Of a DNA stretch of 34,539 bases, positions 1 through 30,394 are shown in pieces. This DNA is from Acidobacteriota bacterium (GTDB lineage Bacteria > Acidobacteriota > Vicinamibacteria > Vicinamibacterales > UBA8438), in assembly GCA_026706755.1 (NCBI GenBank), contig JAPOYG010000188.1:1-34539 (forward strand), given 5' to 3'. How positions within the stretch are numbered: the stretch's first letter is position 1; every line of letters begins with the position of its first letter. The position numbers were made by a program, and so were the translations under genes. The notes under the pieces are model-generated. The model was not told the DNA's origin and did not search any database. It worked only from the letters and a program-made list of their open reading frames with translations.

Positions 1-485
1 TCGATGATCTCCGCCTCGAGCCCCGCGCCCAGCCCCAGCGGCTCGTGGGCGGACCACTCGTACTGACTGTCGAGCGCCCGGGCGGCGGTCAGGATCGCAA
101 GCTCCGCGAGCCGCTGGTCCCGGTTGCCGTCGGCCCCGAAGCGCAGGTAGGTGCTGGCCGGGAACAGATGCTCGGCCATGGGCGGACTGTACATCCACAT
201 GCCGATGGGACCCCGCAGCCCGGTGGCGTAGCGGCTGTCCGGATGGACGATGACGTCGTAGGCCCGCTGGCCGTCCGCGTCGAGCGACTCGCGCGCGATG
301 CGCGGCAGACGCGCCCAGGAGTCCTCGCGAATGTCCGGCGGGATGTCCTCCGACGTCACCACGCGGGGAGTGAACGTCTCGCCCTGCGCCGTGGCGACGG
401 CTCCGGCAGCGTCGACGACGACACCGGAACCGCAGGCGGCGAGCGCGGGCAGGCAGAGAGCGAGGACGAAGAGCCTCAGCGTCAC
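1..485 (-). CDS. Carboxymuconolactone decarboxylase-family lipoprotein (3' end cut by window edge)
   Basis: Partial gene: 161 codons are visible and the C-terminus lies off the left edge. The start is GTG at 485, chosen because GAAGGAGGT sits 5-6 bases upstream and because the protein then opens with a lipoprotein signal (LFVLALCLPALAAC), the Cys being the predicted lipidation site. The mature part ends in the window with a block typical of the carboxymuconolactone decarboxylase/AhpD-like fold: RLAELAILTAARAL, then YEWSAHEP and an alpha-helical Gly-Leu-Glu stretch. Family members are small all-helical proteins that act as decarboxylases or alkylhydroperoxidase-type reductases; the Cys pair of true AhpD is not visible in the part present. 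It is divergent from the radical SAM gene at 601, with a 115-base gap. The substrate is unknown; exported members are often annotated only by family. Confidence 0.8.
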   Translation of the reverse strand, partial: MTLRLFVLALCLPALAACGSGVVVDAAGAVATAQGETFTPRVVTSEDIPPDIREDSWARLPRIARESLDADGQRAYDVIVHPDSRYATGLRGPIGMWMYSPPMAEHLFPASTYLRFGADGNRDQRLAELAILTAARALDSQYEWSAHEPLGLGAGLEAEII

Positions 486-600
486 GGGGCACCTCCTTCG
501 GCAGGCGGGAATCGGAACCGCAGGCGACGACTCCCAAGCGTTGCTGCTATGCTGCGCTGCGGCGGCGCCGCGGCGCAAGTCCGCAGGGTGCCGCGCGCCG

Positions 601-1962
601 ATGTCGCTGAATCACCTGGCCACCCGCTTCGGCTGCTCCTGGCCCTGGAGCACGCTGGTGCTGTCGTGCGACGGGCGAGTGGTCTGCGGCTGCGCCGACC
701 CGTACATCAAGCGCGTGCTCGGCGACGCGCGGACCCAGCCGCTCGCCGAGATCTGGAACGCGCCGACGATTCGCAGCCTGCGCGACGACCTCAATTCCGG
801 CGGCTCCGGGTTCTGCGGGGACTGCCCGCTCAAGCTGCCGCTCGCCGACGACGCGGCACCCCATGTCCGGCCGATCGATGCCGGCCCGTTGCCCTCACGG
901 CTCTACGTCGAGTGCACCGCGGCGTGCAACATCTCGTGCTTCGAGGCGTGCTGCGCCCCGGAGACCGGCATCACGAGAACCCGCCAGGCCGGCATGCTGG
1001 ATTTCGATCTCTTCACCCGCGTGGTCGACGAGGCGGGTCCGGGGCTCGTGCGGATCGACTTCTTCAACTACGGCGAAGCCTTCCTGCACAAGCGGGCGGT
1101 GGAGATGTGCGAGTACATCAAGCAGCGCTTCCCGCAGACCTACCTCTACACGAGCACCAACGGGCTGGCGCTGAGCGAAGCGCGGGCCATCCGTCTGGTC
1201 CATTCCGGAATCGACGAGGTCACCTTCTCGATCGACGGCGCGTTCCCCGAGAGCTATGCCCGGTACCGGCAGCGCGGCCAGCTCGACGTGGCGCTCGGCA
1301 CCCTGCGCACGATGGTCCGCGAGAAGCGGCGCACCGGCCGGGACCTGCCGTTCATCAACTGGCGCTACATCCTGTTCCGGTGGAACGACAGCGCCGAGGA
1401 GATGGACCGTGCCCGGCAACTGGCGGCGGAGATCGGCGTCGACCGCCTGTCGTGGGAGATCACCGACCATCCGGAGTCGGCGTTCTCGCGGCGCTTCGCC
1501 CCGGGGACCCCGGACCATGCCGCGATCCGCCGCGAGGTCTGGGACGACAACGGCCTCGGCAACGCGATACCGGGCGCCACCCCCCGCGCGCGCATCGACC
1601 TGCCCGCGCGCGTCCCGGGGCTGCCGCTCGTCGGACGCCGGGGCGGCCGCATCCGGCTTCGAACGCGGGTCCACAACCTGTCGACCCGCGCGTTCCCTTC
1701 CCAGGCGACCTATGGACGCCGACTCGTCCGCCTCGGCGCCCAGCTCTGCGCAGCGGACGGCACCGTCACCGAGCGCGATCACGCGCGCGCGTGGCTCCCC
1801 GCCGCGCTCGAGCCGCGCGGCGCGGCCGACGTGGCCATAGAGGTTCCCATGCCGGCCGCGCCCGGACGCTACCGGCTGAAGCTCGATCTCGTGTTCGAGG
1901 GCGTCGACTGGTTCGAGGCGTGCGGCTCCCCGACGACGAGCCGGCCCTTGCTGGTCTGGTAG
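601..1962 (+). CDS. Radical SAM protein with N-terminal SPASM-like domain and C-terminal beta-sandwich
   Basis: A 453-aa protein starting at ATG 601; no strong ribosome binding site is visible, but homology-like sequence begins at this codon. Residues 10-80 look like a SPASM auxiliary cluster domain: Cys12, Cys23, Cys29, Cys31, the stretch AEIWNAP near residue 50, and Cys72-x2-Cys75. The radical SAM core follows (about 98-325): Cys105, Cys109, Cys113, Cys117 and Cys118, then FFNYGEAFLH (the SAM-binding GGEP-like strand) and FSIDGA. Cys109, Cys113 and Cys117 are spaced x3-x3, not the canonical x3-x2. Residues about 340-453 form an Ig/jelly-roll-like domain ending in a WFEACGSP stretch, a module I associate with surface-polysaccharide enzymes. 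SPASM domains normally follow the core, so the order here is reversed. The reaction and substrate cannot be told from sequence; peptide or glycan modification is plausible. Confidence 0.85.
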   Translation: MSLNHLATRFGCSWPWSTLVLSCDGRVVCGCADPYIKRVLGDARTQPLAEIWNAPTIRSLRDDLNSGGSGFCGDCPLKLPLADDAAPHVRPIDAGPLPSRLYVECTAACNISCFEACCAPETGITRTRQAGMLDFDLFTRVVDEAGPGLVRIDFFNYGEAFLHKRAVEMCEYIKQRFPQTYLYTSTNGLALSEARAIRLVHSGIDEVTFSIDGAFPESYARYRQRGQLDVALGTLRTMVREKRRTGRDLPFINWRYILFRWNDSAEEMDRARQLAAEIGVDRLSWEITDHPESAFSRRFAPGTPDHAAIRREVWDDNGLGNAIPGATPRARIDLPARVPGLPLVGRRGGRIRLRTRVHNLSTRAFPSQATYGRRLVRLGAQLCAADGTVTERDHARAWLPAALEPRGAADVAIEVPMPAAPGRYRLKLDLVFEGVDWFEACGSPTTSRPLLVW

Positions 1963-1982: not shown

Positions 1983-2447
1983 ATGCAGAGACCCGCCCGC
2001 CGCGGCGCCGGGCCACGGAGGGCCGCCATCGGCCTGGCGACGGGAGCCGCCGTGCTGGGCGCCTCGCTGGCGGCTGCCGCCGGGCGGGCCGCACAGCCTG
2101 CGGATCCGCCGCTCTATCGCTGTGCGGACGCCGCTCGCGTCGAGGCGGGACGGGTCGGCCTGACGCTGTGCGATGCCGCACCGACCCCCGCCCTTGCGGA
2201 CCGCGCCGAGCGCGACAACCTGCAGCTCCGTCCCGGCGCCCTGGTGGTGGCGGTGGTCCCGGAGGGCCTGGCGGCCCGCGAGGGGCTGCTGCCGAACGAC
2301 ATGATCTTCCGGGTGGCCGGCTCCGACGTGGCCGGCGGCGGAGCGGCTTCCGTCCCGCTCGCCGCGGTCGGGGCGGAGAGCGATACGCTCGTCAACTTCC
2401 TCCGTGGCGGACGCCCGTACCTCGTCAAGCTGCGGCGCACCCCCTGA
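1983..2447 (+). CDS. Small exported PDZ-like protein
   Basis: A 154-aa protein starting at ATG 1983, 20 bases after the radical SAM stop. Residues 1-37 are a signal peptide or anchor: Arg-rich N-region, then an Ala/Gly/Leu hydrophobic core, with a likely cleavage near GRAAQPA. The mature part has two Cys (in LYRCADA and LTLCDAA), which could form a disulfide outside the cytoplasm. Residues about 78-152 resemble a PDZ domain: ALVVAVVPEGLAAREGLLPNDMIF, split as PEGLAAREG and NDMIFRVAG, then a final strand YLVKLRR. PDZ domains bind peptide C-termini and are usually attached to proteases; here no protease domain is present. It may be co-transcribed with the radical SAM gene, but nothing in the sequence ties their functions together. 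Confidence 0.65.
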   Translation: MQRPARRGAGPRRAAIGLATGAAVLGASLAAAAGRAAQPADPPLYRCADAARVEAGRVGLTLCDAAPTPALADRAERDNLQLRPGALVVAVVPEGLAAREGLLPNDMIFRVAGSDVAGGGAASVPLAAVGAESDTLVNFLRGGRPYLVKLRRTP

Positions 2448-2587
2448 CTGGCGCGTTGGAGTCGAGGCCGGCCGGCGCCCTGCGCCCCGTCGATCATCCC
2501 GGGGCGCCGCGGTCGAGAATCCGCGCCCGATCGGCGGGGAGCCGCGCAGCCGCGGCCGACCCGACGCCGCGGAACGGGGCGCGCGGT

Positions 2588-3736
2588 ATGCTGACCGGCG
2601 TGCGCCGTCCGCCGTCCGCCCTCCTCCCCGCCCTGTCGCTCGCCGCCGCGGCCGCCCTGGCAGCTCCGTCGGCGCAAGCGCACCCGCTGACGTTCACCGA
2701 GGTGACGCTGACGCTCGGGCCCGGGCCCGTCTTCTTGGCCGACGTCATCTACGACCTGGACGCCCTCGCGCTCGGCGTGCCGATCGACACCGATGACGCC
2801 GAGCTGGCCTCGGCGCTGGCCGCGCTCGGGCCGGACGAGCTCGACCTCCGCCTGGCGCGTCTGCGCCGCCTCTTCGAGCGCCGCGTCCGCGTCCGCTTCG
2901 ACGGCGAGCCGGCGCCCTTCGAGGTCGGCTTTCCCGACCACGACGCGCCACGGACGGCGGCCGCCGACATACCGTCCGTGCTCGGCCTGACGGCGAGGCT
3001 GACGGGCGCCATCCCGCCGGGCGCGGTAACGGTCGGCTTCTTCGCCTCCCGCGCCTTCGGGGAGGTGCACCTGTCGATCGTCGACGCGGTGCGCGGCGGC
3101 GAGACCCGCTCGATCCTGGAGCCGGGCGCCCGGAGCGAGCCCCTCGACCTGTCGGGACCGTTCACCCCGCCGGGCCCGGGAGAGACGGCGTACCGCTACC
3201 TGCGACTCGGCTTCGTCCACATACTCCCGGCGGGCGCGGATCACATCCTCTTCGTGCTGGCGCTGTTCCTGCTGAGCACGCGCCTCCGGCCCCTGGTCTG
3301 GCAGGTCACGGCCTTCACCGTCGCCCACGCCGTCACCCTCACCCTGGCCGCGCTCGATGTCGTAGCCCTTGCCCCCCGCATCGTCGAGCCGCTCATCGCG
3401 TTGTCGGTCGCGGGGGTCGCCGTCGAGAACGTGCTGACCGATCGGCTCACCCGCTGGCGTGCGGCCGTCGTATTCGGCTTCGGCCTGCTGCACGGCCTCG
3501 GCTTCGCCGGCGTGCTCGGGGAGCTCGGACTTCCGGACGAGGGACGCCTGCTGGCCCTCGCGGCATTCAACGCCGGCATCGAGCTGGGCCAGTTGGCAGT
3601 GATCGCGGGCGCCGTGGCGGCCCTGGGATGGTGCCGCCGGAAACCGTGGTACCGGCGCCGGGTGAGCGTGCCGCTCTCCTGCGCCATTGCTCTCACCGGC
3701 CTCGCGTGGGCGGTGGAGCGCACCGCCGGCGGCTGA
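2588..3736 (+). CDS. HupE/UreJ-family membrane protein
   Basis: A 382-aa protein starting at ATG 2588. A signal peptide ends at SAQA, leaving His-Pro at the mature N-terminus, which is usual in this family. Residues about 28-200 form an extracytoplasmic beta-rich region. The C-terminal half is a bundle of about six membrane helices carrying the family's His-rich motifs: GFVHILPAGADHILF (about 207), FTVAHAVTL (about 240), GFGLLHGLGFAG (about 297) and FNAGIELGQL. HupE and UreJ relatives are thought to move nickel or assist metalloenzyme maturation, and the conserved His and Asp residues would fit a metal path. No hydrogenase or urease genes occur in the window, so the metal and client are unknown. 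It converges with the small membrane protein at 3792-4103. Confidence 0.85.
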   Translation: MLTGVRRPPSALLPALSLAAAAALAAPSAQAHPLTFTEVTLTLGPGPVFLADVIYDLDALALGVPIDTDDAELASALAALGPDELDLRLARLRRLFERRVRVRFDGEPAPFEVGFPDHDAPRTAAADIPSVLGLTARLTGAIPPGAVTVGFFASRAFGEVHLSIVDAVRGGETRSILEPGARSEPLDLSGPFTPPGPGETAYRYLRLGFVHILPAGADHILFVLALFLLSTRLRPLVWQVTAFTVAHAVTLTLAALDVVALAPRIVEPLIALSVAGVAVENVLTDRLTRWRAAVVFGFGLLHGLGFAGVLGELGLPDEGRLLALAAFNAGIELGQLAVIAGAVAALGWCRRKPWYRRRVSVPLSCAIALTGLAWAVERTAGG

Positions 3737-3776
3737 CCGCGGCCCGGGGACGAGACGCGGTTCCGCGGGGGCGGGA

Positions 3777-3791
3777 CGGGGCGACGCCCCG
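3777..3791. terminator. Short GC hairpin between convergent genes
   Basis: CGGGGC, loop GAC, GCCCCG: a perfect 6-bp stem lying between the stop of the HupE-like gene (3736) and the stop of the opposing gene (3792). It abuts the latter. There is no T-tract on either side, so intrinsic termination is only a suggestion based on position. Confidence 0.4.
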
Positions 3792-4103
3792 TCAACTCGA
3801 CGAGGCGCCGGCCGCGCGGCGGGCGATCAGGCGGCCGAGGACCCGCAGCTTGCTCCAGAAGAAGTCGAACTGCCCGAGCAACGCGCCGTACCCCAACAGG
3901 AGAAGCTGGTAGACAGGCAGCATGATGATCAGGTAGATGGCCCACTGCAGCCACCCCGGGGCGATGGAAGGGAGCAGGAAGCTCATGACCGGCCCCTTCA
4001 CCCACAGCGTCGTCATGCCGGCCAGGGCGAACGCCGCAAGAATGGCGACCACACCCATCGGCCCGACGCCCCAGCGTCTTCGCATGCGTTCGACTATCCG
4101 CAT
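3792..4103 (-). CDS. Small membrane protein resembling DUF6787
   Basis: A 103-aa protein. I place the start at ATG 4103 (MRIVERMRRRWGVG); a longer reading is possible but adds Arg/Gly-rich sequence without family character, and ATG 4085 is a shorter alternative. A basic N-terminus precedes two membrane helices: VVAILAAFALAGMTTLW (about residues 18-34) and WAIYLIIMLPVYQLLLLGYGAL (about 53-74). After the second comes the motif GQFDFFWSKLRVLGRL. The pattern of a basic helix, two membrane spans, a P-x-YQ turn and G-Q-F-x-F-F-W matches what I know of DUF6787 proteins, whose function is not known. The SD sequence is weak (GGACGGA). It is divergent from the propeller operon at 4356 and convergent with the HupE-like gene. 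Confidence 0.7.
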   Translation of the reverse strand: MRIVERMRRRWGVGPMGVVAILAAFALAGMTTLWVKGPVMSFLLPSIAPGWLQWAIYLIIMLPVYQLLLLGYGALLGQFDFFWSKLRVLGRLIARRAAGASSS

Positions 4104-4300
4104 TTTTGGGTCCGTCCCGCGTAGCGTACCGCTCGCACCATGCCGGATCGCGGCCACGCCCTCGCCCCCTGCCGGGCGCCGCGCCGTGTCACGGCGGCCC
4201 GGGATGCCGCGCTGCGTGAGATCGAGTCTCAGTATGGGGCGGCGCGATCCTACACCGCGGGCGGGTTGTCCGCCAAACGGCCGGCCCGTGGCCCGCCGCA

Positions 4301-15590: not shown

Positions 15591-15684
15591 AGCAATAGTC
15601 TACGCGCTGAGGCCGGTCCCGGGCGCGTCCGGCGCAGGCGGGGTGATCGGATCGGCGGCGCGCGGGGTAGGATGCGTGAGAGCC

Positions 15685-17714
<2,030 letters not shown>

Positions 17715-17718
<4 letters not shown>

Positions 17719-18611
17719 GCCGGGACGCGGGCTCCGCGTGCATCCTCGTCGTGGACGACTCCGCGGCGGACCGCGAGCTGGCGGGACGCCTGCTCGCCAG
17801 GGCCTCCCTCGACGTGCTGCACGCCGGGGACGGGCAGGAAGGCCTGGCCCGCATGGCCGCGCACGACGTCGATCTCGTGCTGACCGATCTCGTGATGCCG
17901 ACGCTCGACGGCCTGGCTTTCGTGGAGCGCGCGAAATCCGAGCACCCGCTCGTCCCGGTGGTGCTCATGACGGCCCGCGGCAGCGAGGAGATCGCCGTTC
18001 AGGCGCTGGAGGCGGGAGCCGCAAGCTACGTCCCGAAGAAGGCGCTCGCCCGCGACCTCGTCGAGGTGGTTCAGCGCATGCTCGCCGCCTCGCACGAGCA
18101 GCGCAGCTACGCGCGACTCCTCGGGCGGCTGCGGGCTGCGTCGTTCGTGCTGGAGAACGATCCCGAGCTGATCTCGTCTCTCGTCAGCTACCTGACGCAG
18201 GTTCTGCGCGACTCGGCCATGTTCGACGAGTCGGACTGCCATCGCATCTCGACCGCTCTCGACGAAGCCCTGACGAACGCCTACTACCACGGCAATCTGG
18301 AGGTGCGTTCCGAGATCCGCGAGCACGATTCCCGCGCCTACCGCATGCTCGCCGAGCGCCGCCGGCATCTCGCGCCCTACCGGGATCGGCAGATCCTCGT
18401 GCGCGCCAGCCTCACGTCCGACGAGGCGTCGTTCGTCATCAAGGACGGAGGGCGGGGCTTCGACGTCGACGCCGTGCGCGACCCGACGCGACCCGAGAAT
18501 CTCGAGAGCCCGAGCGGCCGCGGGATCTTCCTGATGCGGACGTTCCTGGACGACGTGCGCTACAACGCGGCCGGCAACCAGGTGACGCTGCTCAAGCGGC
18601 GCCGGGCGTAA
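17715..18611 (+). CDS. Response regulator fused to an RsbW/SpoIIAB-like ATPase domain
   Basis: A 298-aa protein whose ATG overlaps the kinase stop (ATGA). The receiver (7-125) has acidic residues Asp14-Asp15, phospho-acceptor Asp58 in LTDLVMPTLDG, Thr86 and Lys108 or Lys109. After a linker helix, residues about 145-298 form a GHKL ATPase of the anti-sigma/serine kinase type: N-box DEALTNAYYHGN, G1 KDGGRGFD and G2 SGRGIFLMRTFLDDV. This matches RsbW-like kinases, which bind a sigma factor and phosphorylate a STAS antagonist, and not histidine kinases, since no HisKA precedes it. A roughly 40-residue insert lies between N-box and G1 (EIREHDSRAYRMLAERRR). The inferred logic: phosphorylation of Asp58 by the upstream HPt switches the ATPase, whose substrate may be the STAS protein encoded at 19817-20173. 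Confidence 0.88.
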
Positions 18612-18623
18612 CCGTGCTCGCGG

Positions 18624-19784
18624 TCACCCGGGCTCCGTGGCCTGGATGACGACCACCGTCTTGTCGTCCCCGGGGTCGGGATTCCCGCGCTCGAACCGCT
18701 CGGCGGCGTGGCAGATGCGCCGCGCGAGCTCGGCCGCCGGGCAGTCCGGGTGCTCGGCCATCACCGCGCGCACCCCCTCGAGGTCGAAGAACCGCTCGTC
18801 CTCGTCCTGGGCTTCGGTGACGCCATCGCTGTAGACGACGAGCCGCGCGCCCGCGTGCAGGCGAACTGTCCGCTCCTCCCACGCCGCGTCCGTGAAGAGC
18901 CTGAGCGGCGGTCCGGTCGACACCAGCGTCGATTCGGTGTCGCCCTCCTGGAGCACGGCCCGCGGATGGCCTGCGTTGACGAACGTGAACCGACCGGTCG
19001 TCGCTTCGAGCACGCCGTAGAAGAGCGTCACGAAGCGGTCCTGGCTGCGGTCGTGCAGCAGTGCGCGGTTCAGCGTCCGCACGAGCTCGAGCGGCGTGGC
19101 GCAGCCAGCTGCCTCGGCCCGCAGGACGCCCTGGGTCTCGGCCATGAGGATGGCCCCCGGGATCCCCTTCCCCGAGGCATCGCCCAGCGCCAGCGCGACG
19201 CGATCGCCGCCGAGCTCGATGAAGTCGTAGAAGTCGCCGCCCACCTGGCCGCTGGCGTGGAGGTGCGCGCCGATGTCATGGCCGGGAGCGGCCGGCATGC
19301 GCGAAGGCAGGAACGACTGTTGCACGAAGGCCGCGATCTTGAGCTCGTGCTGAAGGCGGCGGGTCTGCTCGGCCAGCAGCCGATGCCGTTCGCGAGCGTA
19401 GCGGATGCTGCGGGCGAGGAGGTCCGGCGTGAGGCGGTCCTTGACGAGGTAGTCCTGGGCGCCGCGCTGCACCGCGCGCACGGCCACGTCGTCGTCGTCG
19501 AGGCCGCTCAGCACGACGACGGGCGCCATCCGGTTGAGCCGATGGATGTCGTCGAAGGCGGCGCCCGATCGCGCCACGGTGCGGGAGAGGCCGAGCAGCA
19601 CGACGTCGCACTGCCGGGCGTCGAGCTCGGCCGGCGCGGCGTCGGCCTGGGCGACGTGCACGACCTCGGCGGTGCGGAACCCCGGCGCCGAAGCCTCCTC
19701 GAGGAGGGCGGACACGCGCGCCACGTCGTCCCCATCGCTCTCCACGAGCAACACGCGCACGCTTGCTGCGGCCTGACTGGACAC
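18624..19784 (-). CDS. SpoIIE/RsbU-type PP2C phosphatase with degenerate receiver domain
   Basis: A 386-aa protein starting at GTG 19784, with GAGGAG 4-5 bases upstream. Residues 8-125 keep the receiver fold and the late Lys115 (YLVKDRL), but the phospho-acceptor position is Gly65 (DVVLLGLSRT) where relatives have Asp, so phosphorylation there is not possible. Residues about 150-386 form a PP2C-like serine phosphatase with intact metal-binding motifs: QVGGDFYDF, GDASGKGIPGA, VNAGHPRAVL, YSDGVTEAQD and GDDKTVVV. Such enzymes dephosphorylate STAS antagonists in partner switches. The STAS gene lies 32 bases upstream on the same strand, making that the likely substrate. The gene converges with the receiver-ATPase gene, with only 12 bases between stops. 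Confidence 0.9.
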   Translation of the reverse strand: MSSQAAASVRVLLVESDGDDVARVSALLEEASAPGFRTAEVVHVAQADAAPAELDARQCDVVLLGLSRTVARSGAAFDDIHRLNRMAPVVVLSGLDDDDVAVRAVQRGAQDYLVKDRLTPDLLARSIRYARERHRLLAEQTRRLQHELKIAAFVQQSFLPSRMPAAPGHDIGAHLHASGQVGGDFYDFIELGGDRVALALGDASGKGIPGAILMAETQGVLRAEAAGCATPLELVRTLNRALLHDRSQDRFVTLFYGVLEATTGRFTFVNAGHPRAVLQEGDTESTLVSTGPPLRLFTDAAWEERTVRLHAGARLVVYSDGVTEAQDEDERFFDLEGVRAVMAEHPDCPAAELARRICHAAERFERGNPDPGDDKTVVVIQATEPG

Positions 19785-19816
19785 GCTCTCCTCGACCCCG
19801 CCGGGAGACGGGCCTC

Positions 19817-20173
19817 CTACGACGCGGACTCCTGTTCGAAGCTCCGGAGTGCCTCCGCCTCCGAGCGGAACGTCTCGAAGACCACCTCCAGCTTCGTCGT
19901 CACCATCAGATCCCAGACCCGATCCGTGAGGTGCAGGAGCTTGAGTTGCCCGCCGGCGTCCCGGAGGGAGGAGCGCTTCGACAGCAACTCCCCCAGCGCG
20001 GCGCTGTCGATGAACGACACGTTGCGGAGATTGAGGATCACGCGCGTGCGGCCTACCGCGATGAGATCGTCGATCCGCTGCGCGAGCGCGTCACCCGCCT
20101 CGCCGGCCAGCTTGCCGTGCAGATCGAGAATGGTCAGCTGATCGAAATCCCGCTGGCCGATCCGCAGCGCCAT
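19817..20173 (-). CDS. STAS-domain anti-sigma factor antagonist (RsbV/SpoIIAA-like)
   Basis: A 118-aa protein. ATG 20173 is chosen because AGGAGG sits 7 bases ahead and the product then has the normal length of a single STAS domain. The central strand-loop-helix is VILNLRNVSFIDSAALGEL, in which Ser57 (in FIDSAALG) occupies the position phosphorylated by RsbW-like kinases. In a partner switch the unphosphorylated form binds the kinase and frees its other partner. The neighbouring PP2C phosphatase would reset Ser57, and the receiver-ATPase at 17715 is a candidate kinase. The gap of 109 bases to the upstream CoxL-like stop holds GC-rich inverted segments (around 20236-20256) but no clear promoter. 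Confidence 0.9.
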   Translation of the reverse strand: MALRIGQRDFDQLTILDLHGKLAGEAGDALAQRIDDLIAVGRTRVILNLRNVSFIDSAALGELLSKRSSLRDAGGQLKLLHLTDRVWDLMVTTKLEVVFETFRSEAEALRSFEQESAS

Positions 20174-20282
20174 CGCTCCGCCTCCTGCCGCATGCTGACC
20201 CAAATCGAGGCGGAAACGCAACACGGGCAGCTCCGGCGCGCCTTGCCGGACCGGCTGCCGGGGCACGGCGCGCAACCCGTCG

Positions 20283-22704: not shown

Positions 22705-25700
22705 TCACGTCGCGGTGGCTCGACTGCGCTGCAGCGCCCGGTCGCACGCCCGCTGGAAACGGGCTCCGAACTGCCGCGCGGCTTCTCCCGCAACCGGGCC
22801 GAGCCGGCGGCGCTCGATCTGCAACCGCTTGATCTCCTCGATGGCGGCCCGGCGCCGCGCTCCCTCGTCCACCCGCACGCCCATCGTGTTGCTGGCGAGC
22901 TGTTCGCGCCAGCGCCGGGCGAGCATCTCCGCCGGGGATGCCTTGGCGACGGTCTCCGGCGCCTCCGGGACGAGAGCCTCGGCACGTTCGCACAGTCGCT
23001 CCAACTGCTTCAACTGCCGCGCGGGATCCAGGTCCGTATCGCGGAACGCCTCGGGCCGCGCCTCCACCAGCCTTGCCACTGCCCGGCCGAAGCGCGCCGC
23101 GAGCCGGCGCCGATCGTCCGGCGGCACCTCCGGCGCCTGCCGCCAGCGGGCCTGAATCCCGCGGACCGCGGCGAGCAACGCCGCCGGCTCCAGAGGCGGT
23201 GCGGCGGCAGGCGGCAGGGGGGCGGCCGGCGCCGGCTCTTCCGCGGAGGGGGCCGCCGCGGCCTCCGCCGCCGGCTCCCCGGATGCTGCCGCCGCGGCAT
23301 CCGCGTCCTCGCCCGCCGCGGACGGCCCCGACCCGTCAGCCTCGCCCGCCGGCTCGGCCTCCGCCCCGGAGGCCGTCGAAGCCGCCGCCTCCCCCGTGTC
23401 GGGCGGGGACGCCCCGGGCGCCTCGTCCGCCGGCTCGGCCTCCGCCCCGGAGGCCGTCGAAGCCGCCGCCTCCCCCGTGTCGGGCGGGGACGCCCCGGGC
23501 GCCTCGTCCGCCGGCTCGGATTCCGCCCCGGAGGCCGCCGAAGCGGCCTTCTCGCCCGCGTCCGGCGCATTCGCAGGGGGTTCCGCCGCGGGCGGCGCGG
23601 ATGCGGCCGCCACCGGCGGAGTCGGCAGGAGCGCCTCCAGCTCGGCGCAGAGCGCTTCGCGCTCGGCGATGCGCGCCCCCGCCGCCGCGCGCTCCCCCTC
23701 GCGGGAGCGGTCGATGACCGCTTCGCACGCATCCCGGAACCGTTGCCACAGCGCTTCGGACTTCGACCGGCGCACGGCTCCGATCGTGCGCCATTCCCGC
23801 TGCGTCCGCTTGACCTCCTCGACCGCCGCCCCCAGATCGGCAGCATCCGCAAGGGCCTCGACGCGCGCGCAGAGGGCCTCCTTCTGCTCCAGGTTCTTCC
23901 CCCAGACCTTCTTGCGTTCGGCCAGGTCGGCCTTGCGGCGCGTGAAGAACAGGCTGCACGCTCCGTGGAAGCGCTTCCAGAGTGCACGCTGCTCCCGGCG
24001 CGGCACCGGCCCGAGCGCCTTCCACTCGGCCTGCAGGGTGGTCAGGCGCTGCGCCGTCTTGATCCAGTCGGTCGACTCGCTGAGTCGCTCGGCCTCCTCC
24101 GCCAGTGCTTCGAGCGCATTCAGGCTCCGTGCGCGGGCCGTGCGCTGCGCCTCGAAGTACGCCTCGCAGCGCGGATAGACGACATCGTGCGCGGCCTTGA
24201 AACGACGCCAGAGATCGTCTCCGCGGTCCTTCGGGACTTCCGCCGCCTGACGCCACCGGTCGATCAGGTCGCGGAAGCTGCGCGCGAGGGCCGCCTCGTC
24301 CACCTCGGCCGGACTCTCGCCGCCGTCCGCCGGGGGCGCGACCGTCGCGCCCAGCGCCTCCATCTCCCGGCAGAGCTCCTCCTGGACGCCGAGGTTGGCC
24401 CACCGCTGCCAATCGGCGAAGTCCCGGAGCTCCCGTACCCGGCCGAGCAAGGCCGTCTGCGCGTTGCGCAGGCGCCTTCCGAGCGCCGCGCGCTCCGCCC
24501 CCGCGAGCAGCGGGCCCGCTTCTTCGAGCGCCTGCCGCGTGCGGCGGAGGTGGCGTTCCGCATCCGTCAACTGGAGCTTGTCGCTCGCGGCCTCCGCTTC
24601 GACCGTGGCCGCCAGCCGCTCCAGGCGCGCGAGCCGCTCCCGCAGCCGGCGCTCGTCGTCGGCGTGCGCCCGGGTCTCCACGGCGCGCTTCTTCTCCTCG
24701 GCTGCCGAGCGCCGGCCCGTGGCGGCGGCGACGGCCGCGCCGACCTCCGCGTCGTCTGCCGCACCGCTGTCTCCCAGCCTCGCGACCTCCGCCCGCCAGC
24801 TCTCGTCCACCGACGGCCAGCGGGCGCGGATGGCGGTCGCGTCGGCGGCGGATGCCAGCGCCTCGAGATCCGTCGTCAATGCCTCCAGGCGCTGGAGATG
24901 CTCGAGCCGAGCCGCCCACTCGCGGTACCGGCGCTCGCACCCGGTCGCCGCCGCCTCGAACCGCTGCGTCAGGGCCGCCACCTCGGCCGTCCGTTCGGCG
25001 GCGTCCTCCTCCCCCGCGGCCGGCGCCACCAGTGCGCTCCACTCCTCCCGCGCCGCCCGCAGCACGTCGAGGGCGAGCGGGCCGCGGCTCCGCTCCACGC
25101 GCTCGCACAACTCCAGGAACGGGGCGACGGCCGCGGCGCGGCGCGCGGCAGCCTCCCGCGCGTCGCTCGTTTCCCGGTCGAGCTCGAGCAGGCGGTCCTC
25201 CGCGGCGCGGCGCGCGGCGGCGAAGCGGGCTGCCACCTCCGCGTCGCCAGGGGTGTCGAGCGATGCCCAGCGCTGGACGAGCGTCTCGATCTCCCGCCGC
25301 CCGGCATCGAGATCCGTTGCCCCGGCCAGGGCCTCGGCCGCTTCGCAGAGCGCGATGGCGCTGGCCGGATCGAACGTCGGCGCCTCTTCCGGTGCGGCGC
25401 CCTCCCGTGCCGCGAGCTCCGACCGGGCCCGTCGGGCCACCACCTTGTGATTCGCCCGCCGGGCGATGTCGGCGAGCGCCTCGGAAGCCAGCCCGCCCTC
25501 CGCCGCGGCGAGTCGATCGAAGGCGGCGAGGGCGATCGTCTTGCTCTCGGCCTTGACCACGACGCTGAGCAGCTCGTCCCGGCCATCGAGCCGCTCCAGG
25601 GCCTGCCGGGCCACCTCGGGGTGCTTCGCGCGCCGAGCCACGCCTCCGAGCAGCTTCGCGTCCGTCAGGCGGGCCACGGCGCGCTCGCTGACCGGCTCGC

Positions 25701-27598: not shown

Positions 27599-30394
27599 AT
27601 GCCGACCGCACCCCGAACGCCGGCCGGGACCGGCATCGAGGAACGGGTGCTCGCGGTCGTCGCCGAGCTGGTCGGCGAGCTGCGCGGCGAGCGCGCGCCG
27701 GCCGTCGGCCCCGGCGACTCGCTGGAAGCCGACCTGGGCATCAACAGCCTGGAACGGGTGGAGCTGCTCGTGCGGCTCGAGCGCGCGTTCGGCGTGCCCC
27801 TGGGCGAAGGCGTCCTGGCGGAGGCCGAGACGCCGTCCGACCTCGCCGCCGGCGTTGCCGCGGCCGAAGCACCGGCCGCCGCCCCGCCCCCGCCCGGACC
27901 CGAACGGTACGCCCCGCGCCGCGCCGGCGCCGGCTCTCCGGGCAGCGCCCGAAGCATCGTCGACGCGCTCGCCTGGCACGTCGAGCGCGCCGGGGACCGG
28001 ACGCACATCCATCTGCGCGAGGAAGACGGTCGCGAGACGCCCCTCAGCTACGCCTGGCTGTGGGACGAGGCGTCGAAGGTGGCGTCCGGCATCGCCGCGC
28101 GGGGGCTGCGCCGCGGCGACGCCGTCGCCATCATGCTGCGAACCGAGCAGCGCTTCTTCCCGACCTTCATCGGGACGCTGATGGCGGGGTGCGTGCCCGT
28201 GCCGCTGTACCCCCCGTTCCGCGCCGACCGGATCGTCGAGTACGCCCGGCGCCAGACCGCCATCCTCCGCAACGCCGGCGCCCGCCTGCTCGTCACGTTC
28301 CGCGAGGTGGAGCGGCTGGCGGGCCTGCTGACCCGGCAGGTGGCATCCCTGGAATCGGTGGCCGGAGCCGATGTGCTGCCCGGCGAGCCGGGGACGCCGC
28401 GAGCGGCGGCCCTCGACGATCCGGCCCTCATCCAGTACACGTCGGGAAGCACGGGTCATCCGAAGGGCGTCCTCCTGTCTCACGGGAACCTGCTCGCCAA
28501 CATCCGCGCCATCGAGCGGCGTCTCGAGGTCGATCCCACCGATGTCGCCGTGAGCTGGCTTCCCCTCTACCACGACATGGGGCTGATCGGCGCCTGGCTC
28601 GGGGCGCTGTACTTCGGCGCCCCCCTGGCCCTCATGTCGCCCCTTGCCTTCCTGGCCCGGCCCGTCCGCTGGCTCCGGGCCCTCGACACCCATCGCGGGA
28701 CGCTCTCGCCGGCCCCGAACTTCGCCTTCGATCTCTGCACGACCAGGATTCCCGACCGTGAGCTCGAAGGGCTGGACCTCAGCTCGGTGCGGGTACTGCT
28801 GAACGGCTCCGAGGCCGTGCTGCCCGACACGATCCGACGCTTCGTCGAGCGCTTCGAGCCGTACGGGCTCGACCCGACGGCCGTGCTTCCCGTGTACGGC
28901 CTTGCCGAGTGCACGGTCGGGCTGTCCACGCCGCCGCTCGGCCGGCCACAGCGCATCGACTGGGTGCAGCGGGCGAAGTTCCAGTCTTCCGGGCGCGCCG
29001 CGCCGTCCCCCGCGGGCGATCCGCAGGCACTCGGCTTCGTCTCCTGCGGCCGGGCGCTCCCCGGTCACGAGCTCGGGGTGGTCGACGCCGACGGCTTGCC
29101 CGCACCGGAACGCCGCGAAGGCCGGGTCCGATTCCGCGGTCCCTCGGCCACCCGCGGCTACTACCGAGACCCCGGCGCGACGCGCGCAATCGCCCGCGAA
29201 GACGGCTGGCTCGACACCGGCGACCTCGGCTACATCGCCGACGGCGAGCTCTTCCTCACGGGGCGGTCGAAGGACCTGATCATCAAGGGCGGCAGCAATC
29301 TGTATCCCCATGAAGCCGAAGCCGCGGCCGGCGCCGTTCCCGGCGTCCGCGCCGGGTGCGTCGCGGCGTTCGGCGCCGCGGATCCCGAGCGCGGCACGGA
29401 ACGCTTCGTGATCGTCGCCGAGACGCGGGAGACGGGGCGGGACGAGCTGGCCGAACTGCGGCGCGCCGTGACTCGCAGCGTAACGGACGCGGTCGGCATC
29501 GCTCCCGACCGCGTCGTCCTCGCGCCGCCGGGCTCCGTCTCGAAGACGTCGAGCGGCAAGATCCAGCGGGCGGCGACCCGCGACGCATGGCTGCAGGGAC
29601 GCATCGGCCAGCGGCGAGCCGGCGCGGCGGCCCAGTGGCTGCGCCTCGGCGCGGAAGCGGCCAGGACCCTGCTCCGAGAATGGTGCGCGCGCGCCGGCCG
29701 CCTCGCGTTCACCGCCTGGGTCGTCACGCTCGTCGCGACCACGGCGCCGGTGGCCTGGGCGCTCGTGCGGATCGGGCCCGGCGGCCGGCGGGTCGATCGG
29801 ATCGTCGGCCGCTGGACCCGGCTCCTCATGACGCTCGCCGGTTGCGGGGTCGAGGTGACGGGTCGCGAGCTGACGGCAGCGGAGGGGCCCGCGGTCTTCG
29901 TCGCCAACCACGCCAGCTACCTCGACTCGCCGCTGATGATGAGCGTCGTGCCGGGTGGGGCGCGCTTCGCGGTCAAGGCGCGGCTGACCGGCTACCCGAT
30001 CCTGGGGATGGTCATCCGGCGCGGCGGGCACATCCCGCTTCACAAGGACGACCAGTCGCAGCGGATCGAGGGCGCCGGCGATCTCGCGGAGCCGCTGCGG
30101 CGCGGGGAACGGGTGTTCGTGTTCCCGGAAGGGACCTTCGACGAGGTGCCACGCCTGCTGCCGTTCCGCCTCGGCGCCTTCCGGGCCGCCGTCGATGCCG
30201 GTTGCCCGGTGGTCCCCGTGGCCATCCGTGGCGCCCGCCGCATCTTCCCGGCCGAGACGTGGCTGCTGCGGCCCGGACGAGTCGCGGTCACCTTCGGTCC
30301 GCCCCTCCGCCCCTCCGGAACGGACTGGTCGGAGATCGTCCGCCTCCGTGACGAAGCGCGCGCCTTCATCGCGGAGCACTGCGGCGAGTCGTAG
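27599..30394 (+). CDS. Three-domain fusion: acyl carrier protein, fatty acyl-AMP ligase, PlsC acyltransferase
   Basis: A 931-aa protein starting at ATG 27599, without a clear SD. Residues 12-90 form an acyl carrier domain with the phosphopantetheine Ser50 in LGINSLERVEL. Residues about 118-680 form an adenylate-forming ligase: P-loop YTSGSTGHPKG (from 280), LPLYHDMGLIG, VYGLAECTVG, LDTGDLGYI and SKTSSGKIQR, resembling fatty acyl-AMP ligases. A hydrophobic segment (about 700-725) leads to a PlsC/1-acylglycerol-3-phosphate acyltransferase domain with NHASYLD (His771, Asp776) and FPEGTF (842-847). The set implies activation of a fatty acid, loading onto the attached carrier and transfer to a lipid acceptor at the membrane. 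E. coli Aas also joins acyltransferase and ligase, but in the reverse order and without a carrier. The acceptor lipid is not evident. Confidence 0.9.
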   Translation: MPTAPRTPAGTGIEERVLAVVAELVGELRGERAPAVGPGDSLEADLGINSLERVELLVRLERAFGVPLGEGVLAEAETPSDLAAGVAAAEAPAAAPPPPGPERYAPRRAGAGSPGSARSIVDALAWHVERAGDRTHIHLREEDGRETPLSYAWLWDEASKVASGIAARGLRRGDAVAIMLRTEQRFFPTFIGTLMAGCVPVPLYPPFRADRIVEYARRQTAILRNAGARLLVTFREVERLAGLLTRQVASLESVAGADVLPGEPGTPRAAALDDPALIQYTSGSTGHPKGVLLSHGNLLANIRAIERRLEVDPTDVAVSWLPLYHDMGLIGAWLGALYFGAPLALMSPLAFLARPVRWLRALDTHRGTLSPAPNFAFDLCTTRIPDRELEGLDLSSVRVLLNGSEAVLPDTIRRFVERFEPYGLDPTAVLPVYGLAECTVGLSTPPLGRPQRIDWVQRAKFQSSGRAAPSPAGDPQALGFVSCGRALPGHELGVVDADGLPAPERREGRVRFRGPSATRGYYRDPGATRAIAREDGWLDTGDLGYIADGELFLTGRSKDLIIKGGSNLYPHEAEAAAGAVPGVRAGCVAAFGAADPERGTERFVIVAETRETGRDELAELRRAVTRSVTDAVGIAPDRVVLAPPGSVSKTSSGKIQRAATRDAWLQGRIGQRRAGAAAQWLRLGAEAARTLLREWCARAGRLAFTAWVVTLVATTAPVAWALVRIGPGGRRVDRIVGRWTRLLMTLAGCGVEVTGRELTAAEGPAVFVANHASYLDSPLMMSVVPGGARFAVKARLTGYPILGMVIRRGGHIPLHKDDQSQRIEGAGDLAEPLRRGERVFVFPEGTFDEVPRLLPFRLGAFRAAVDAGCPVVPVAIRGARRIFPAETWLLRPGRVAVTFGPPLRPSGTDWSEIVRLRDEARAFIAEHCGES

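Follow-up and report, generated by a model that had tools for sequence, protein, structure and literature searches.

The gene at positions 601-1962 of the analysed stretch (the window, 34,539 nucleotides of an Acidobacteriota bacterium) encodes a radical SAM protein in which a cysteine-rich domain precedes the radical SAM core and a beta-sandwich follows it. When a profile of 50 relatives (residues 1-330) was compared with the PDB, the top match by eight orders of magnitude was BtrN (4m7t; E 2.4e-18), aligned in two stretches of swapped order: residues 94-216 fall on residues 21-142 of BtrN, and residues 6-79 fall on residues 183-259, the C-terminal twitch domain. The swapped order of the two halves makes the protein a circularly rearranged twitch enzyme of the BtrN kind. 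It is a variant of the twitch-type radical SAM enzymes, new as a variant and not categorically new. The second match, at E 1.1e-9, is BlsE, cytosylglucuronate decarboxylase, another sugar enzyme. The features discussed below are as follows.

601-1962 (+): radical SAM protein gene, an open reading frame of 453 residues with the start MSLN; dN/dS 0.10-0.15
634-825 (+): N-terminal twitch domain, residues 12-75, from the Pfam SPASM match (12-76), the alignment to the C-terminal twitch of BtrN (183-259) and conservation
892-1470 (+): radical SAM core, residues 98-290, a partial alpha/beta barrel, from Pfam Radical_SAM, AF2 and Foldseek
925-954 (+): SAM-cluster loop CNISCFEACC, residues 109-118, with proposed ligands C109, C113 and C118, from conservation in 66 sequences
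1069-1077 (+): Tyr-Gly-Glu (YGE), residues 157-159, invariant or nearly so among 50 relatives
1615-1959 (+): C-terminal Ig-like beta-sandwich, residues 339-453, with an FW (NBR1-type) fold, from Foldseek matches 4ole, 6vhi and 3idu

The gene and its family

Relatives turned up at 38 loci in a homologue search; the majority are full length, with 65-98% identity, and nearly all are labelled as Acidobacteria or Vicinamibacterales MAGs. Many of these have an in-frame stop a few codons 5' of the MSLN start. The full-length relatives, the dN/dS of about 0.10-0.15 (against four relatives) and the G+C content of 0.92 at codon position 3 establish that this is a real, conserved gene under selection, in agreement with the reading frame given in a preliminary description, which had also correctly placed its cysteines (residues 12, 29, 31, 72, 75, 105, 109, 113, 117 and 118). 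The family belongs to uncultured soil and marine Acidobacteriota and is widespread within one bacterial class, and annotation libraries label it merely as generic radical SAM or SPASM. The Pfam Radical_SAM model (PF04055) matches residues 105-239 with E 3e-7 and 31.2 bits, above its curated cut-off of 29.5. Every NCBIfam model falls far under its cut-off, the top one being TIGR04317 with 85.8 bits against 380, and in a tree of the cores the protein groups with its family relatives as a clade; the earlier suggestion of a distinct subfamily with an unassigned reaction thus holds.

An initial AF2 model built from 32 sequences had a pLDDT of 82, with the loop of residues 107-130 below 50. With 50 sequences, the core and twitch (residues 1-330) were modelled at pLDDT 91 and pTM 0.89, and the same loop at about 88. 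Foldseek searches with the core model returned BlsE (7vob) as the best structural match, along with viperin and NifB. The glycoside hydrolases that head a whole-protein Foldseek search were not accepted as homologs, since they superpose poorly over long stretches (rmsd 13-20, TM about 0.2); these matches are probably due to mixed matching of barrel and beta-sandwich. The YGE motif, which we take to correspond to the radical SAM GGE motif, and an STNG motif are conserved in the family alignment.

The predicted beta-sandwich tail was confirmed as an FW-like fold: its AF2 model resembles the FW domains of NBR1 (4ole; Foldseek E about 1e-6, probability 1.00) and ILRUN (6vhi), with Pfam N_BRCA1_IG under its cut-off (13.1 versus 28 bits). 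FW domains of NBR1 and ILRUN are protein-binding. The same tail domain is present on Methyltransf_11 proteins of the window genome (G000:C138) and of relatives.

Three other parts of the window were read by eye. At 27599-30394 (+), a fatty-acyl-AMP ligase seems to share one open reading frame with an acyl carrier protein and a PlsC-type acyltransferase. The stretch 15643-20275 resembles a partner-switching system: it contains genes for a hybrid histidine kinase, an ATPase-domain response regulator and, on the minus strand, a SpoIIE-type phosphatase and a STAS protein. A low-complexity Ala/Pro/Glu stretch of nearly identical tandem repeats occupies 23336-23720 (-) within a large DUF349-like protein.

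The N-terminal twitch domain and the SAM-cluster loop

The Pfam SPASM model (PF13186) matches residues 12-76 with E 4.5e-10 and 40.1 bits (curated cut-off 21.5), ahead of the Radical_SAM match, which bears out the position claimed for the cysteine block and places the first 90 residues in a cluster-type domain. A SPASM domain has the seven-cysteine motif CX9-15GX4C-gap-CX2CX5CX3C-gap-C (PMC6231123), and a twitch domain is a shortened SPASM that holds one cluster (PMC6231123; PMC9012708). The block in this protein has just C12, C29 (in GX3C) and C72-X2-C75, with C31 in addition. Since the CX5CX3C...C part is absent and four conserved cysteines are present besides C31, the block is assigned as a twitch domain; a full SPASM with two clusters was ruled out for lack of second-cluster cysteines. 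The term SPASM-like in the preliminary description was therefore imprecise, and wrong if a SPASM-type domain with two clusters is meant. C12, C29, C72 and C75, the proposed ligands of the auxiliary cluster, are invariant across 50 relatives; C31 is conserved inside the family but lost in the more distant relatives L077 and L080.

The twitch domains of BtrN, MoaA and SkfB-type enzymes have been described as C-terminal extensions (PMC9012708); the domain of this protein, with the ligands expected for one cluster, is N-terminal. The domain order that had been called reversed is real but not unique, because twitch-then-core proteins also make up NCBIfam NF033640 (N_Twi_rSAM), which has true members in 3 of 60 genomes from the same class, and the order is common to further relatives (L075-L078 and L088). 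On a tree of 38 cores, sampled essentially from Acidobacteriota only, the swapped order needs one change, and the branch to NF033640 is long. The N-terminal part of TIGR04317 and TIGR04311 matches the core of the protein, and its N-terminal part, scanned alone, aligns with their C-terminal SPASM. One genome (G005, locus L093) has two adjacent radical SAM genes with FW-like domains, at 148-1788 (+) and 2293-4131 (-); one encodes FW-core-SPASM, the usual order, and the other FW-twitch-core-FW, the first FW of each having been assigned by eye and alignment. This pair, with a C-terminal SPASM beside an N-terminal twitch, may illustrate the origin of the rearranged order. No paper on an N-terminal SPASM, or on circular permutation with SPASM, was found in the open-access literature. 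The rearranged twitch makes it possible to ask whether an auxiliary cluster needs the same position for electron transfer.

The cluster loop of 66 family sequences has Cys at X4 and none at X2 throughout, so that the canonical CX3CX2C is absent from all of them. C113 and C118 are present in all 66 and C109 in 65. C117 is kept in 53, being Ile in eight close relatives and Val in five deeper ones, and C105 in 56, with Pro, Thr or Ser in the other ten (Pro in all seven deeper orthologs); C105 was ruled out as a cluster ligand by this conservation. Because C118 is constant where C117 turns to Ile or Val, the SAM-cluster motif is most likely CX3CX4C, formed by C109, C113 and C118 with a two-residue insertion. 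The x3-x3 spacing proposed earlier, with the cluster on C109, C113 and C117, finds some encouragement in the 53 sequences with Cys at 117 and in the distant relatives L077 and L078, which do carry CX3CX3C (CNFDCPTIC), but the substitution of C117 beside a persistent C118 leaves it without support for the clade, and it is probably wrong: we consider it very improbable for this protein.

Among the more distant N-terminal-twitch proteins, CX3CX2C is found in L075, L076, L080, L088 and the members of NF033640, and CX3CX3C in L077 and L078. The CX3CX4C spacing maps to one clade of the 38-core tree (SH-aLRT 93), arising once, with the loop columns left out of that tree. No paper naming CX3CX4C, or CxxxCxxxxC, was found in the open-access literature. 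CX3CX3C is written once for NifB in PMC9692996, but as that paper gives CX3CX2C elsewhere it was not taken as a precedent. The natural series CX3CX2C, CX3CX3C and CX3CX4C in related proteins makes the tolerance of the loop directly testable.

Gene neighbourhood and proposed reaction

In most relatives the enzyme gene is the last of a block of sigma factor, STAS protein, 85-amino acid protein and radical SAM protein, with lpxC and uvrA facing and lysA, tmk, comF, rsfS, nadD and obgE upstream (sigma factor and STAS named by Pfam, the other eight by eye from sequence). The block precedes the enzyme in 23 of 25 sampled enzyme-bearing genomes of the class, with the gene of the 85-amino acid protein directly upstream on the same strand. 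The window genome keeps the block, lacking the enzyme, at another site beside lpxC (C361, locus L042), where the STAS and 85-amino acid protein genes directly precede lpxC (L042:7073-7685) and the radical SAM gene is absent; the enzyme lies in a neighbourhood other than that of the block both in this genome and at L003-L005. Three orthologs of 46-48% identity (family f36; L090, L091 and L094) are directly downstream of a Robl_LC7 (roadblock) protein and a Ras/Arf-like small GTPase in the same direction. Of the deeper orthologs, L092 has a polysaccharide deacetylase directly upstream, and L093 has a HAD phosphatase, a PfkB kinase, a heptosyltransferase (GT9) and a GT2 nearby. A plasmid search gave distant core matches only.

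The best explanation, held with moderate confidence, is a circularly permuted BtrN-like core and twitch with an added FW domain, catalysing a BtrN-like two-electron oxidation. The [4Fe-4S] cluster for SAM binding and cleavage would have C109, C113 and C118 as ligands, and a single auxiliary cluster would be bound by C12, C29, C72 and C75. Hydrogen abstraction by the 5'-deoxyadenosyl radical would act on a substrate that the FW domain holds or recruits; with the second electron passing to the auxiliary cluster, the net outcome would be a dehydrogenation. BtrN oxidises a sugar-like alcohol by two electrons, with its fully ligated auxiliary cluster the likely electron acceptor (PMC9012708), and that cluster is ligated by four cysteines (PMC9012708; PMC6231123). 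Oxidation is favoured because BtrN is the closest solved enzyme and the four conserved twitch cysteines fit full ligation; the BlsE match, the model at pLDDT 91 and C118 as third ligand count in the same direction. The genes beside the distant orthologs L092 and L093 hint that the substrate might perhaps be an alcohol, such as a sugar, in an envelope glycan. Against a sugar enzyme, the neighbours in 23 of the 25 class genomes are the sigma factor, STAS and 85-amino acid proteins rather than sugar genes, and those in family f36 are the roadblock protein and GTPase. Our confidence stays moderate because similarity is an uncertain guide to function within the SPASM/twitch group (PMC6231123).

Less likely, though the strongest of the alternatives, is a protein maturase that modifies the upstream 85-amino acid protein (MRTIKTTTGA...ESLFLNTVKYEN) or a partner of the sigma-STAS system, with the FW domain binding protein. 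The conserved adjacency, the protein-binding nature of the nearest FW folds and, in family f36, the position of the enzyme after another switch module all agree with this. However, of 46 class genomes sampled, 43 have the 85-amino acid protein and just 25 have the enzyme, so that the small protein does not depend on the enzyme; the block stands without the enzyme in the window genome; and the 85-amino acid protein has no conserved cysteine and matches no Pfam or NCBIfam family. Because almost every sampled genome of the class has this protein, whether or not it has the enzyme, its co-occurrence with the enzyme is uninformative, and its role as an obligatory partner is unsupported. Rather doubtful is the idea that the permuted twitch and two-residue loop insertion create a new active-site geometry for a reaction new to radical SAM enzymes, which might modify a regulatory protein connected with the sigma-STAS block.

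Maturation of tungsten or molybdenum oxidoreductases is very unlikely: TIGR04317 and TIGR04311 rank nearest among the NCBIfam models, but the latter scores 81.6 bits against a curated cut-off of 400, the former is similarly remote, and AFOR_C (PF01314) is absent from the window genome and from 15 of the 25 enzyme-bearing genomes, on which ground a tungsten-oxidoreductase maturase was rejected. Equally hard to credit is a degenerate protein that has kept its fold and lost radical chemistry; the odd loop would suit it, and within genus g6 the reading frame is interrupted by a TAG at about residue 215 in one genome (L035/L047, on the same contig) and C109 is replaced by Tyr in another (L048), which suggests that the gene is decaying there, but the low dN/dS, the near-constant C109, C113 and C118 and the conserved YGE and STNG motifs argue against it for the family.

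Comparison with known systems

Accepted radical SAM enzymes that depart from CX3CX2C include ThiC (CX2CX4C), HmdB (CX5CX2C) and QueE (CX14CX2C) (PMC4389238); the protein resembles them in departing from the canonical spacing, but none of the three has CX3CX4C. BlsE (7vob), the best structural match of the core, differs in its identity of about 21% (Foldseek), its spacing and its domain order, and the FW tail belongs to the protein described here. TIGR04317 (W_rSAM_matur, W-oxidoreductase maturase) and TIGR04311 (putative metalloenzyme maturase) have the closest NCBIfam cores and a C-terminal SPASM that corresponds to the twitch in swapped order, but the scores are far below cut-off, the domain order is different, and the window genome has no AFOR gene. 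NF033640 shares the twitch ahead of the core; however, the protein scores 22.7 bits against its cut-off of 170 and lies on a separate branch of the tree, and the members seen here carry CX3CX2C. NF033640 is a named family for which no assigned reaction or characterisation was found. The closest likeness is to BtrN (2-deoxy-scyllo-inosamine dehydrogenase; 4m7t, 4m7s), with which both the core and the four-cysteine twitch align. BtrN has its core before its twitch, CX3CX2C (C16, C20 and C23; PMC9012708) and no FW domain, whereas the Acidobacteriota protein has twitch, core and FW domain in that order, with CX3CX4C.
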